Source: Alphaproteobacteria bacterium MedPE-SWcel
GTDB lineage: Bacteria; Pseudomonadota; Alphaproteobacteria; Rhodobacterales; Rhodobacteraceae
DNA length: 64,000 nucleotides
Assembly: GCA_001874255.1 (NCBI GenBank)
Contig: MPDC01000010.1
Span: forward strand, 62,001 to 126,000
Direction: 5' to 3'
Below the pieces are notes generated by a model that saw only the letters and a list, made by a program, of their open reading frames with translations, searched no databases and was not told the DNA's origin. The translations under genes and the position numbers were made by a program. Positions 22,700-36,942 of this stretch are shown in pieces (the first letter of the stretch is position 1; the number at the start of each line of letters is the position of its first letter).

Positions 22700-22744
22700 A
22701 TGTCTGTCTCCTCTCCGTCTCACCCGACGGTTTGATATGTGACG

Positions 22745-22945
22745 CATCTGGCCGGTCTCCTGACTCGCGGGTCGATGCGGACCTTTCCCCTTCCCAAACG
22801 CCCCCCGGTCGGGGCGCGCTCAGTGGGTGTCGAAAGGCCGCTCGCCGCTCACAGTCGCGGGGGCGGTTGAGGCTTCGGCGCCGCGATTGGGTCCGCCGTT
22901 CCTCATTCCCGTTTCAGTCCCGGGCGCTCAAGCACACCACGGACA
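22745..22945 (-). promoter_or_regulatory. Cobalamin riboswitch upstream of cbiM-cobF
   Basis: On the minus strand the B12-box AGTCAGGAGACCGGCC is at 22750-22765, about 50 bp before the cbiM ATG. Upstream on the same strand are the conserved CCCCGCGACTGTGAG piece (near 22848-22862) and a GGGAATGAGGAA piece (near 22898-22910). Their order and spacing fit the cobalamin riboswitch core. The element lies between the cobA stop and cbiM, so adenosylcobalamin should repress cbiM and cobF separately from the main operon. The 5' boundary is approximate. Confidence 0.9.
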
Positions 22946-23013
22946 CCAAATGCATTTCTCTGTGTGACTCCGCTATGGGCGCGGGTCAAGTTTGTATACG
23001 TCCTGACCGGGGT

Positions 23014-25922: not shown

Positions 25923-26290
25923 GTTTCTATCGTCTCCGCTACGGCCAGGGTGGCATGGCCATCCGAGGTCACTCGTCTTGTGTGGATCAGCTGGGCGTCG
26001 GCGCCGTGGTGTCGTGCGGCGACCAGGGCCAGGGCCTCAGCCACCGATCCGGTGTTGAACCGCGCCTGGATGCGCGGCGAAAAGCTGGGTGTCGAGACGC
26101 CGGAAATCGCGGAATCCTCGACAGAAATGAGGGGCAGGGCGGCCGTCTGCGCAAACTCCTGAAATTGCGCGAGGCCCGCCTTGGTGCGGAGCACGGCAAT
26201 CGCGGCCGGAGGCGGCGCCACGGCGGCCAGCGCCTCGGTCAGGCTATCGGCGCTCACGCGGGAGGAGAACCCAATTCCGGCGATGATCAT
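25919..26290 (-). CDS. cobE: CobE / CbiG C-terminal-like cobalamin biosynthesis protein
   Basis: Predicted 123-residue protein matching the C-terminal domain of CbiG, known as CobE in aerobic-pathway organisms. It opens [17 protein letters not shown] and has the conserved [23 protein letters not shown] and [12 protein letters not shown] pieces. Its exact step in the aerobic pathway is not settled. The short start at 26290 is set by the ATGA overlap with cobL; the frame is open further upstream but only as antisense. Both ends are coupled to neighbours by 4-base overlaps. Confidence 0.9.
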
Positions 26291-27483
26291 CGGGTGACGC
26301 TCCATTGCAGGACGGGACGGGCCCGCTCCCAACCGCGCATGGCGCCCAGGGGGCCTGCCTCGGCGATCTCGGCCTTCAGCAGATGGCCTCCGTGGCGGGC
26401 ATGGGCCTGCATCAGCAGGGTTTCGGTTTCCAGGGTGACGCCATTGGCGACCAGTCGGGTGCCCGCGGGCAGGATGTTCCAGAGCGCGTCCAGCAAGGCC
26501 TGTGATCCGCCGCCACCGACAAAGACGCAATGTGGGATCGGCTGCCCCCCCAGAACGTCCGGCGCCCGGCCTTCGACGACAGTCATCCGGTGGGCGACGC
26601 CAAAGGTCTCGGCGTTGCGGCGGATGTTCATCAGCCGGTCCGCGCGGGGCTCGAAGGTGGTTGCGGTGGCACCGCGCGCGGCCAGGCACCATTCGACCGA
26701 AACCGAGCCGGACCCGCCGCCGATATCCCAGAGATGTTCGCCGTGGCGCGGGGCCAGGGCCGAGAGCGTCAGGGCGCGGACCGGCCGTTTGGTGATCTGA
26801 CCGTCACTGGCGAAGGCGGCGTCGGGCAGGCCGGAGGCCTGGGGCATTCCGGCGCCGGTGACGTCGATTGCTGCGACGACGGGGGCCGTGACGCCGGTCA
26901 GATCGAACGCCTGTGCCGTTGTCGAGCGACAGCGCGCATGAGGCCCGCCGAGACGTTCCAGAATATGCAGGCGGCTGGACCCATGCCCCTGGGCCTGCAG
27001 CCACTGTGCCAATGCGCGGGCCGCGTCGCCGTCGCGCAGGGTGCAGATCGCCTGCGTGTCGCGCCCGAGCAGGGGCAACAGTGATGAGAACGGCGCGGCA
27101 TGGAGGCCGAGGCACAGCGTCGCCTCGAGTTTCCAGCCCAGCATGTTTGCGGCAAGTGTGAAGCAGGACGGAGCCGGATGCGACACCCATTCGGCGCGGT
27201 CGAGGTCGCGCAGCAGGCTGCCGCCGGCCCCGTGCCAGAAAGGATCACCAGAGGCGAGGACGACCACCGGGCGGCCACGCGCGGCCAGCACCGGGGCGGT
27301 GGAAAAGGGAACTGGCCAGGCCTGACCGCGAGGGCCTGCATCCACCAGAGCCAGATGCCTGGGACCTCCGAAGATGATTTCTGCCTCGTCCAACGCCCTT
27401 CGGCTTGCACTTGACAGGCCATCGAGGCCATCTTCGCCCAGCCCGATCAGGGTCAACCACGCGCTATGAATAGGATCAGCCAT
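26287..27483 (-). CDS. cobL: Precorrin-6Y C5,15-methyltransferase (decarboxylating)
   Basis: Predicted 398-residue bifunctional enzyme. Residues 1 to about 205 form a tetrapyrrole methylase (LIGLGEDGLDGLSSASRRAL, VLASGDPFWHGAGG). The C-terminal half is a CbiT-like Rossmann methyltransferase/decarboxylase with LWDIGGGSGSVSVEW. ATG at 27483 has AGGAG 7 bases upstream and shares the palindrome CATG with the oppositely directed cobK start. A start 17 codons further upstream is possible but has no obvious ribosome site. Its ribosome binding site lies inside cobK antisense sequence. Confidence 0.95.
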   Translation of the reverse strand: MADPIHSAWLTLIGLGEDGLDGLSSASRRALDEAEIIFGGPRHLALVDAGPRGQAWPVPFSTAPVLAARGRPVVVLASGDPFWHGAGGSLLRDLDRAEWVSHPAPSCFTLAANMLGWKLEATLCLGLHAAPFSSLLPLLGRDTQAICTLRDGDAARALAQWLQAQGHGSSRLHILERLGGPHARCRSTTAQAFDLTGVTAPVVAAIDVTGAGMPQASGLPDAAFASDGQITKRPVRALTLSALAPRHGEHLWDIGGGSGSVSVEWCLAARGATATTFEPRADRLMNIRRNAETFGVAHRMTVVEGRAPDVLGGQPIPHCVFVGGGGSQALLDALWNILPAGTRLVANGVTLETETLLMQAHARHGGHLLKAEIAEAGPLGAMRGWERARPVLQWSVTR

Positions 27484-28246
27484 GACGAAACTCCTGCTTT
27501 TGGGCGGCACCACGGAGGCCTCGCGCCTGGCCATCGCTCTTGCGGAGGCATGGGGCGGAGCTGGTCCGGGAGCCGGGCGTCAGGCGGTGTTCTCCTATGC
27601 GGGCCGAACCGCGCGCCCGGCCTCGCAGCCGTTGCCCTGCCGGATCGGCGGTTTCGGGGGCGTTGCTGGGCTGGCGGCCTATCTGCGCCATGAGGCCATC
27701 ACGCATGTGGTCGATGCAACGCATCCTTTTGCGTCGCAAATGTCGGCCAATGCCGTGGCGGCCTGTGGGGAGGCCGGAGTGAAACTGCTGGGGTATGAGC
27801 GACCGGAATGGCTGGCGCAGCGCGGGGACATCTGGATCCGTGTCCCCGATATGGCAGGGGCAGTTGCAGCATTGCCCGAAGCAGCCGCCCGGGTGTTCCT
27901 GGCGATCGGCAAGCAGCACGTGGCGGCCTTTGCCGCACGGCCGGGCAACCACTATCTGTTGAGGTTGGTGGACACGCCCGACGCTCCGCTGCCGCTGCCG
28001 CTGCCGAAGACCAGTGTCGTTGTGGCCCGGGGTCCGTTTGGCGCCGAAGGGGATGAAGCGTTGATGCGCGCCCATGCCATCACCCATGTGGTTGCCAAGA
28101 ATTCTGGTGGCAGCGGTGCGCAGGCCAAGCTGGTTGCGGCCCGTGCGCTTGGCCTGCCGGTCGTGATGATCGACCGGCCGCGCAGTCCGCCCCGTCAGGT
28201 CGTTGGGTCGGTTGCAGAGGTGATGAGCTGGCTGGACCACGCCTAG
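27482..28246 (+). CDS. cobK: Precorrin-6A reductase
   Basis: Predicted 254-residue NADPH-dependent reductase. Motifs: LLLLGGTTEASRLA at the N-terminus, THVVDATHPFASQMSANA, AIGKQHVAAFA and THVVAKNSGGSGAQAKLVAA. It is the only plus-strand gene in the cob block. It lies exactly between cobL and cobJ: its ATG overlaps the cobL ATG in CATG, and its TAG overlaps the cobJ TAG in CTAG. AGGA lies 7 bases upstream inside the cobL frame. Any promoter must lie inside cobL. It is antisense to any transcript running from cobJ to cobL. Confidence 0.95.
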   Translation: MTKLLLLGGTTEASRLAIALAEAWGGAGPGAGRQAVFSYAGRTARPASQPLPCRIGGFGGVAGLAAYLRHEAITHVVDATHPFASQMSANAVAACGEAGVKLLGYERPEWLAQRGDIWIRVPDMAGAVAALPEAAARVFLAIGKQHVAAFAARPGNHYLLRLVDTPDAPLPLPLPKTSVVVARGPFGAEGDEALMRAHAITHVVAKNSGGSGAQAKLVAARALGLPVVMIDRPRSPPRQVVGSVAEVMSWLDHA

Positions 28247-29127
28247 TGTTCTTTCTGACCGGACGGTGACGGGGACTGTGAAGCGGGTAGATGCTCTGGC
28301 GTGTCGTCGGGCATGTGGTCGGGCGTGTGGCCGGATTTGTGTCCGGGATTATGTCCGGGCGCAAATCGCGGAGTATAGACGTATTTGCCCACCTGACGGG
28401 TTTCGCGGGTGCCGACAATCACCACGGTCCGCATATCTGCCATCTCTGGCGTTGCGTCGCGCAGCGCGACCGTCAGGAGGGCCTGACCCGGTTTGGTGAC
28501 GTCCCGGGCGAAGGTGATAAGGGTCTCTTCGCCGCAGGCCGCGCGGAGCACCTCAAGCGCCCGGGCGAACTGATGGGGTCTGGATTTCGAGCGCGGGTTG
28601 TAAAAGGCCATGGCCAGACCGGCTTCGACGACCAGCTGCAACCGACGCTCGATGAGCGCCCAGGGTTTGAGGTTGTCGCTCAGGTTGATGGCGGCGAAGT
28701 CATGCCCCAGCGGGGCGCCGATGGCGGCGGCGGCGGCCAGCATCGCGGTAATGCCCGGCAGCACCCGGATGTCCAGCGTGCGCCAGGACGAAGGCCCGGC
28801 CTCCAGCGCCTCGAACACGGCCGAGGCCATGGCAAAGACACCTGGGTCGCCAGAGGAGACGACGACAACCTGTCGCCCCGCCGCCGCCATTTGCAGCGCA
28901 TGGGTGGCGCGGTCGATCTCGACGCGGTTGTCGGAGGCATGCAGAACCAGGCCTTTGCGTGGCTTGACCCGGTTGACGTATGGAATGTAGCCAACCACAT
29001 CGGTGGCGGTCGCAAGCGCTGCGTGGACCTCTGGGGTGATCATGTCATCCGAGCCGGGGCCGAGGCCGACGATTACGACGTGGCCCGGGACACTGTGGGC
29101 GGTTTGGTCGGGGGGCAGAGACGTCAT
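28243..29127 (-). CDS. cobJ: Precorrin-3B C17-methyltransferase with His-rich tail
   Basis: Predicted 294-residue methyltransferase doing the ring-contraction and C17 methylation step. Family features: VIVGLGPGSDDMITPEV, VGYIPYVNRV, VVVSSGDPGVFAMASAV, PGITAMLAAAA, GHDFAAINLSDNLKPW and MAFYNPRSKSRPHQ. The catalytic core ends with the RQVGKYVYTPR segment near residue 250. After it comes an unusual tail with six tetrapeptide repeats (PGHN, PGHK, SGHT, PDHM, PDDT, PEHL). The start is coupled to cobI by ATGA, and the stop overlaps cobK tail-to-tail. Confidence 0.95.
   Translation of the reverse strand: MTSLPPDQTAHSVPGHVVIVGLGPGSDDMITPEVHAALATATDVVGYIPYVNRVKPRKGLVLHASDNRVEIDRATHALQMAAAGRQVVVVSSGDPGVFAMASAVFEALEAGPSSWRTLDIRVLPGITAMLAAAAAIGAPLGHDFAAINLSDNLKPWALIERRLQLVVEAGLAMAFYNPRSKSRPHQFARALEVLRAACGEETLITFARDVTKPGQALLTVALRDATPEMADMRTVVIVGTRETRQVGKYVYTPRFAPGHNPGHKSGHTPDHMPDDTPEHLPASQSPSPSGQKEH
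28288..28359 (-). repeat. 12-bp in-frame repeat encoding the cobJ His-rich tail
   Basis: Six consecutive degenerate 12-bp units inside cobJ, read on the minus strand as Pro/Ser-Gly/Asp-His/Asp-X tetrapeptides. It lies just upstream of the cobJ stop and the shared CTAG. Confidence 0.9.
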
Positions 29128-36104: not shown

Positions 36105-36542
36105 TCAGTCCTTTGCAGCAGGGTCTGCGGAGAGGTCAACGCCGGGCAGATGGACCGGCGGGATACGGGCGATGGATTGTTTGCGAAACACCACGGGGCG
36201 TTCGCGCCAGGGCACAAACCCATCCGTGGTGGCCGCATAGGCGGAGGTGCCAGCGACAATATCGTCGAGGTGGGTGTCGGGGTCGAGATCGCCGTAGATG
36301 TAGCTCCAGCGATCCGGGCCGCCGGACAAATGCAGGGTGCAGCCGCGGGAGCAGGCCGACAGGCATTCGACCCCGCGCACGGTGACGCCATCGGGCAAGG
36401 CAGCAGCGGCCAGACGTTCGGCCAGACGTTCGGTCAGGATCCGGCCCGGGCGGGTCGCCTCCGGGTCGGCGCCCGCGCGGCGGCAGGTGGTGCAGACGGT
36501 CAGGACCACCGGGTCTGCGGGCTGTGTCGGGCTATCACCCAT
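36105..36542 (-). CDS. DUF1636 family predicted metal-binding (thioredoxin-like ferredoxin) protein
   Basis: Predicted 145-residue protein with the family pattern VCTTCRRA near the N-terminus and VECLSACSRGCTLHLSG in the middle, giving Cys residues for a metal or [2Fe-2S] centre. The family is commonly found next to cobW in alphaproteobacteria, and its function is unknown. It is the first gene after the second cobalamin riboswitch, so it is B12-regulated together with cobW and cobN. A role in cobalt handling is inferred from position only. Confidence 0.88.
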   Translation of the reverse strand: MGDSPTQPADPVVLTVCTTCRRAGADPEATRPGRILTERLAERLAAAALPDGVTVRGVECLSACSRGCTLHLSGGPDRWSYIYGDLDPDTHLDDIVAGTSAYAATTDGFVPWRERPVVFRKQSIARIPPVHLPGVDLSADPAAKD

Positions 36543-36662
36543 GCGGCCTATACTCCTTCCTCTCGGGCGGGTGGGGCAGGCCAGAAGGGGGTTCTGCGGC
36601 CACGCGACGGTGGTGACAGGCCCTCAACCGGTCGCGGAACACCCCGTCCGCCGGTTCACGTC

Positions 36663-36880
36663 AGTCGTTGGCAGGTCTCCCGGCTTGCGGATGCCAGTGC
36701 CATGGCGGCGGCGCTGACGGTCTTCCCGCCTTCCCGGCTGTGCCTTGCGGCAGGGGCCAGTGGCGTCTGGAGACCTCTCCGGTCACGGTCGCGGGGGCGG
36801 CTGTGCTTGGGGGCGCTGGTGGCGGCCCTGTCACATTCCCTCTTCGCCCGAAGAACACGCCTTCGGGAACCAACAAAAAC
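36663..36880 (-). promoter_or_regulatory. Cobalamin riboswitch upstream of the main cob operon
   Basis: On the minus strand the B12-box AAGCCGGGAGACCTGCCAA is at 36668-36686, followed downstream by the DUF1636 ATG at 36542. The conserved CCCCGCGACCGTGACC lies at about 36781-36796 and GGGAATGTG at about 36830-36840. This is the order expected of the cobalamin riboswitch. The 5' end is approximate. The element is antisense to the upstream region of cobO, whose GTG start is at 36943. Confidence 0.92.
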
Positions 36881-36942
36881 CCCCTTGCGCCATGGCGGTA
36901 CTCTTTGTCAAGACATGGGGCCAAACAGCAGGAGTGAACCCC

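Follow-up and report, generated by a model that had tools for sequence, protein, structure and literature searches.

A stop-depleted frame opposite the inverted cobK gene as a probable translated bridge in the cob operon of Rhodobacteraceae

Introduction

Several genes antisense to known genes, laoB, pop and others, have reportedly been found in Escherichia coli O157:H7 as genes with products (PMC5810103, PMC7103648, PMC9927249). Here we analyze another antisense open reading frame (ORF), which we call the bridge: it lies opposite the inverted cobK gene, between cobJ and cobL, in a 64,000-nucleotide (nt) stretch of the genome of Alphaproteobacteria bacterium MedPE-SWcel, family Rhodobacteraceae (contig MPDC01000010.1, positions 62,001 to 126,000), referred to below as the window. 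Non-contiguous operons have been described in Staphylococcus aureus (menE-menC-MW1733-ytkD; PMC7154746), with 83 candidate units in Dickeya dadantii (PMC9239193), and translational coupling through overlapping stop and start codons of the ATGA type is treated in a review (PMC12548453). For the cob cluster of Ensifer and Pseudomonas denitrificans, overlaps of the adjacent cobJ, cobK and cobL genes were already reported (PMC4070679). Non-contiguous operons, stop/start coupling and antisense ORFs are each already known, and the covered portions of the openly licensed literature yielded no report of such a bridge. Sequence comparison leads us to consider it probable that transcription of the minus-strand cob operon continues across the inverted cobK, and that the stretch opposite cobK is translated as a selected, sequence-indifferent bridge.

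Results

cobK is inverted between cobJ and cobL

By sequence and ORF list, cobK sits on the plus strand of the window, base-tight between the minus-strand genes cobJ and cobL. The features of the locus are as follows.

27482-28246, plus strand: cobK, precorrin-6A reductase (sequence and ORFs; NCBIfam CobK NF005968, 314.9 bits, cut-off 231).
28243-29127, minus strand: cobJ, precorrin-3B C17-methyltransferase, the upstream operon neighbour (NCBIfam TIGR01466, 283.8 bits, cut-off 246.35).
26287-27483, minus strand: cobL, precorrin-6Y methyltransferase, the downstream operon neighbour (NCBIfam CbiE, 94.2, cut-off 92.9, and CbiT, 92, cut-off 78.3).
27476-28240, minus strand: the bridge ORF, 254 codons, codon for codon opposite cobK (ORF list and stop-depletion tests).
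27481-27484, both strands: CATG, common to the cobK and cobL start codons (sequence).
28243-28246, both strands: CTAG, common to the cobK and cobJ stops (sequence; a minority form among relatives).
27476-27483, minus strand: ATGGCTGA, in which the bridge TGA overlaps the cobL ATG and the rare codon NCT stands second in cobL (sequence and locus comparison).
27491-27496, minus strand: CAGGAG, the cobL ribosome site, within cobK codons 4-5 (sequence and shuffle test).
27405-27434, plus strand: a promoter-like pair for cobK inside cobL, TTGCAC at 27405-27410 and CATCTT at 27429-27434, 18 nt apart (codon columns and conservation).

A sequence-only reading of this DNA had placed cobK exactly between its two neighbours, with the CATG holding both start codons and the CTAG both stops; ORF coordinates and NCBIfam matches agree with the placement, and both motifs are present in the sequence. 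Among 51 rough gene calls, cobK is the sole inverted gene of its kind in the window, to which this search was confined.

PF02571 matched in 150 of the 198 family genomes and 136 of the 385 class genomes searched. The locus sample, a subset of these matches, comprised 30 loci per search (family and class) and 160 further regions taken by score rank; after a second copy of the window (L060) was dropped, cobK was present in 220 loci. Neighbour genes were named by single-sequence searches, and some loci may be missed. The cobL(-) cobK(+) cobJ(-) layout was measurable in 95 loci, 71 from the family of the window (window included; L012 and L088 belong to one genome) and 24 from elsewhere in the class. 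We also used a named set, the best 80 of 577 relatives from a scan of named genomes, and all 80 have the layout, including Rhodobacter capsulatus, Phaeobacter, Ruegeria and Leisingera as well as some records labelled Acetobacter, Bradyrhizobium, Polaromonas or Rhodoferax. In both sets an opposite-strand gene thus stands between same-strand operon genes, as in a non-contiguous operon.

A second opposite-strand layout is found for many other cobK genes, for example at L035 and L100-L104: here cobK is paired with cbiD (named by eye), and the pair faces cobA and in some cases also cobM. No bridge was seen there: the 28 loci with cobM next to cobK carry 17.76 stops per 1000 codons.

The frame opposite cobK is depleted of stop codons

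The minus strand opposite cobK forms an open frame of 254 codons (window 28240-27476). The sequence-only reading had treated this stretch as plain antisense RNA; what we find is an open frame in the position that a regular gene of the operon would occupy. As in a conserved antisense overlapping gene, the frame is stop-free in 67/71 family, 77/80 named and 21/24 class loci (the last split into 15/17 without the shared CATG and 6/7 with it), while no locus of the three sets has either of the two remaining antisense frames of cobK open. Among the family loci with CATG, 59 of 63 are stop-free, at 0.38 stops per 1000 codons opposite cobK versus 7.83 opposite cobL and 6.89 opposite cobJ. The aligned antisense frame gives the same picture, with 6.8 stops per 1000 codons for cobJ and 7.5-8.7 for cobL versus 0.35 and 0.15 for cobK. 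Eight plasmid records of 266 matches were fetched (Paracoccus, Sphingobium, two Rhizobium, Sinorhizobium, Azospirillum, Acidiphilium and Pseudosulfitobacter), and all eight are stop-free opposite cobK; five are annotated with cobJ, cobK and cobL and with no gene for the bridge, and three carry no annotation in this region.

GC content, codon bias or shared ancestry might leave a frame open as a by-product, and where genes are rich in GC their aligned antisense frame is indeed often open (27/71 for cobJ, 19/71 for cobL). We calculated an expectation in which CobK residues are kept and codons are drawn from each locus's own cobL and cobJ usage. The family loci contain 6 stops against 101.9 expected and the named loci 3 against 130.4, so that own usage misses the observation 17-fold and 43-fold; class loci without CATG have 17 against 30.7, 16 of them in L051. 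The loss is confined to the cobK codons that create a stop on the opposite strand, which occur 9 times against 213.7 expected (TTA 0 vs 43.3, CTA 4 vs 84.1, TCA 5 vs 86.3), whereas other rare cobK codons are used at 0.68-1.96 of expectation. Depletion also persists among distant loci: thinning to CobK identity below 0.6, 0.55 and 0.5 leaves 5 stops vs 56.4 expected, 5 vs 42.0 and 3 vs 25.9 (28, 15 and 8 loci; L051 and L160, both with GC below 0.5 and broken frames, were left out). By contrast, 41 same-family cobK genes of other context carry 7.72 stops per 1000 codons, with no depletion, and control cobK genes from other contexts contain 318 stops in 115 genes (11.3 per 1000 codons, 31/115 open). 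Given these comparisons, a by-product origin is hardly credible.

Translatability, rather than a product, appears to be kept

The gene-like start, stop and length of the frame, together with its conserved openness, would equally suit an overlapping gene selected for a functional protein. Such selection should be visible beyond that acting on the opposite gene. The antisense amino-acid identity of the bridge is 1.114 relative to a codon-shuffled simulation, the same as in antisense cobL, where there is no bridge (1.118), and a Pfam search with the bridge of the window returned no match. A protein-coding role is accordingly highly improbable. Since there is neither extra amino-acid conservation nor a Pfam match, it is translatability, not the product, that seems to be under selection.

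The bridge overlaps the stop of cobJ and the start of cobL

Both ends of the bridge overlap its operon neighbours in the manner of a translationally coupled ORF. At the upstream end, an ATG, GTG or TTG start overlaps the TGA of cobJ by 4 nt, mostly as ATGA or GTGA, in 61/71 family, 61/80 named and 21/24 class loci. At the downstream end, the bridge overlaps the cobL start by 8 nt (ATGNNTGA type) in 65/71 family and 80/80 named loci. Where class loci lack CATG, 13 of 17 bridges end in ATGA or GTGA, with a 4-nt overlap, on an in-frame cobL start; 7 of these 13 run 18-72 nt beyond the cobK start before doing so (L039, L041, L042, L053, L143, L144, L190).

The 8-nt overlap appears to have its price in cobL codon 2, which is frozen as NCT before GA: it is GCT in 20/20 Ala loci (6.3% elsewhere) and TCT in 33/34 Ser loci (11.1% elsewhere), both rare codons. 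Because of this frozen codon, a cobL start well downstream of 27483, which would have undone the shared start of the sequence-only reading, is unlikely. Comparison of the junction across relatives likewise retains the in-frame CATG in 63/71 family and 76/80 named loci, against 7/24 in other alphaproteobacterial loci. Four family loci read CATC in place of CATG (L004, L073, L080, L091), which leaves the ATG of cobL intact and would make ATC the first codon of cobK; in L004 and L080 no in-frame ATG for cobK lies nearby, and AUC start codons are possible in these loci.

The stop-sharing palindrome fared otherwise. The CTAG is present in the window, and the 4-nt overlap of this type recurs in only 4/71 family and 16/80 named loci, the dominant cobK/cobJ stop overlaps in the family being 28 nt (34 loci) and 25 nt (16 loci). 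As it is not conserved among relatives, its importance is not supported, and we rejected CTAG as a functional element. What is kept is phase: the overlap is 1 mod 3 in 71/71 family, 79/80 named and 22/24 class loci (the class exceptions being L051 and L160), and of the 15 loci with non-overlapping cobK and cobJ, 14 keep this phase.

Ribosome sites and promoter-like elements

The cobL ribosome site, which the sequence-only reading had located inside cobK, withstands a synonymous-shuffle test. Over 63 loci, the mean anti-Shine-Dalgarno energy in cobK codons 2-7 is -7.63 versus a null of -4.45, none of 400 synonymous shuffles being as low, and ten control offsets in the same genes stay within 1.3 kcal of their nulls. 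The reciprocal candidate site for cobK within cobL is weaker (-5.23 vs -4.32, z -3.9), and one control offset itself reaches z -3.8.

Within cobL, a plus-strand CTTGC ... CCATC pair is frozen. The outlier among 518 columns is codon 26 of cobL, where 61/62 Ala loci have GCA, a codon of 12% usage; at codon 18, GAT is found in 57/58. Read as -35 and -10 elements with an 18-nt spacer, the pair occurs in 95% of the 63 loci and has the conserved TTG at -35, the A near -11 and the suitable spacing of alphaproteobacterial sigma-70 promoters, features described in part in PMC8407463. The argument is built on single codon columns and on a control set of cobL copies away from cobK: CTTGC is absent from all 28 usable same-family copies (L235, one of 29 rows, was mis-anchored and left out). 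It is also missing from L029 and L093, where the cobK start has moved away. Among named loci with CATG, CTTG lies within 140 nt upstream in 74/76 and the CTTG-CCATC pair in 59/76, several others reading CCATT. On this evidence a dedicated cobK promoter seems to lie within cobL. A consensus scan gave no sigma-70 match at the locus because its consensus represents E. coli-type promoters; in those of Alphaproteobacteria the TTG at -35 is retained, and a T at -7 is mostly missing (PMC8407463, portions covered). According to the same source, TTG is lacking from betaproteobacterial -35 elements. Two loci labelled Polaromonas (L323) and Rhodoferax (L330) keep the layout and the open frame and have no CTTG; their labels, from metagenome-assembled genomes, may be wrong.

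Windowed synonymous constraint by itself was rejected as promoter proof, being weak after Ser AGY and TCN were split (robust z ~2-3), and its peaks in cobJ proved an artefact of sequence included upstream of the cobJ start. No RNA structure was detected over the cobK leader (z 0.90), and an Rfam scan of 20 related loci, with ~1.5 kb on each side, returned no match, so that a riboswitch between cobJ and cobL was discarded for the loci scanned.

The cobL gene and those after it could instead be driven by their own promoter in antisense cobK, with cobJ transcripts ending before it. Minus-strand promoter-like sites do occur in cobK, the best in 37% (617 nt upstream of cobL) and 27% (269 nt) of the 63 loci, and their conservation is poor throughout beside the 95% of the pair in cobL. 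The window has no minus-strand terminator-like site within cobK, and under this arrangement the overlap of the bridge with the cobJ stop would serve nothing. A well-conserved cobL promoter, which together with a terminator could have dismantled the non-contiguous operon of the sequence-only reading, was thus not found in antisense cobK, and we judge independent expression of cobL quite improbable, though it may occur in single species.

Genes around the locus

The wider run is headed by one further feature.

36653-36889, minus strand: cobalamin riboswitch heading the minus-strand cob gene run (sequence scan).

After the riboswitch the run comprises cobW, cobN, cobG, cobH, cobI and cobJ, then cobL, a cbiG/cobE-type gene, cobM, cobB and cobA; cobW, cobN and cbiG/cobE were named by reading the ORFs and after their neighbours in annotated records, without family matches. 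The riboswitch and cobW are separated by a rough gene call of 145 codons (36105-36542, minus strand). Next to cobA there is another cobalamin riboswitch (102.7 bits; 22733-22965, minus strand), with an ORF judged cbtA-like by eye on its other side, followed by cobF. The C-terminal tail of CobJ is a His/Pro-rich repeat (GHNPGHKSGHTPDHMPDDTPEHLP; 28250-28370, minus strand), and at that locus the cobK/cobJ overlap is 4 nt, the usual length being 25-28.

Discussion

Of the non-contiguous operon proposed from the sequence alone, the layout stands, and the spanning messenger RNA (mRNA) is strongly, if indirectly, supported. A stop-free frame selected all the way from the cobJ stop to the cobL start would make little sense otherwise than on a single mRNA crossing cobK, and co-transcription of cobJ and cobL across cobK is therefore strongly implied. 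The simplest account would be one mRNA read in relay, from cobJ through the bridge to cobL. Ribosomes ending cobJ would restart at the start codon on its stop (mostly ATGA or GTGA; in the window, a GTG 2 nt past the TAG), translate 254 codons of no particular sequence and terminate at the TGA overlapping the cobL start, where they would restart on cobL and couple its translation to the upstream genes. Some ~760 nt of mRNA would thereby be kept covered by ribosomes, which should block both Rho-dependent polarity and duplexing with cobK mRNA. As Rho loads on untranslated RNA (PMC12548453, portions covered), loss of the bridge would expose those ~760 nt to it, and the role of the bridge is probably to counter Rho polarity and to couple cobL translation. 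The cobK gene would be made from its own promoter in the 5' part of cobL and, with it, would escape the riboswitch.

The same layout might instead serve reciprocal antisense control, with cobK mRNA pairing with the cobJ-cobL stretch, RNase III cleavage and polymerase collision, as in S. aureus. The gene order matches that case (PMC7154746, portions covered), there is a promoter-like pair for cobK within cobL, and any spanning mRNA would be complementary to all of cobK, as the sequence-only reading had pointed out. Such control does not predict an open frame that overlaps its neighbours at both ends; we consider it unlikely, and not supported here, as an explanation of the locus, and it may coexist with the bridge.

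Several observations weigh against a translated bridge, a reading that rests on sequence comparison. Stops interrupt the frame in L051 (16) and L160 (13), both of low GC, and in L025 (3), and seven further loci have a single stop or are out of phase. In class loci with CATG the 13 stops observed, every one of them in L160, compare with 13.3 expected. Use of TCG in cobK is likewise low (0.53, the next lowest codon), and this codon creates no stop opposite. The window itself departs from the common ATGA junction, since its cobJ ends in TAG with the bridge GTG 2 nt later, and cobL start codons were chosen among in-frame candidates. For the promoter, L074 keeps CATG yet lacks CTTGC, and a second promoter-like site at cobL codon 231 (78% of the 63 loci), ~620 nt upstream of cobK, is a second candidate for the cobK promoter.

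If the translated bridge is correct, it suggests how the operon escapes polarity over ~760 nt of antisense, and it is a case of synonymous-codon selection imposed from the other strand. A stop-depleted, coupled frame opposite an inverted gene would also offer a sequence-level test for real use of a non-contiguous operon. Since cobF-cobM have been over-expressed as a single cluster in Ensifer (PMC9157374, portions covered), the locus may matter for B12 strain engineering, where recoding of cobK could silently break cobL expression. We lean towards regarding the bridge as a genetic element of a new kind: a translated stretch as long as a gene and selected only for translatability, which carries an operon across an inverted gene, influences the choice of synonymous codons in that gene and is maybe a general answer to polarity in non-contiguous operons.

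Compared with the described systems, as far as the covered portions of their accounts go, the locus resembles non-contiguous operons in having an opposite-strand gene inside the operon that would be fully opposed by the operon mRNA, here known from sequence; it differs from the S. aureus and Dickeya units, whose opposed stretch is called an internal untranslated region, in carrying a selected open frame coupled at both ends. With ATGA-type coupling it shares stop/start overlaps of 4 or 8 nt at both bridge ends, but here the ORF lies opposite another conserved gene and its product shows no constraint on sequence. The covered parts of the account of the Ensifer and Pseudomonas denitrificans cluster (PMC4070679) do not mention the antisense frame. 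Like laoB and pop, the bridge is a long ORF antisense to a known gene; unlike them, it lies between two operon genes, and its openness, not its product, appears to be selected.

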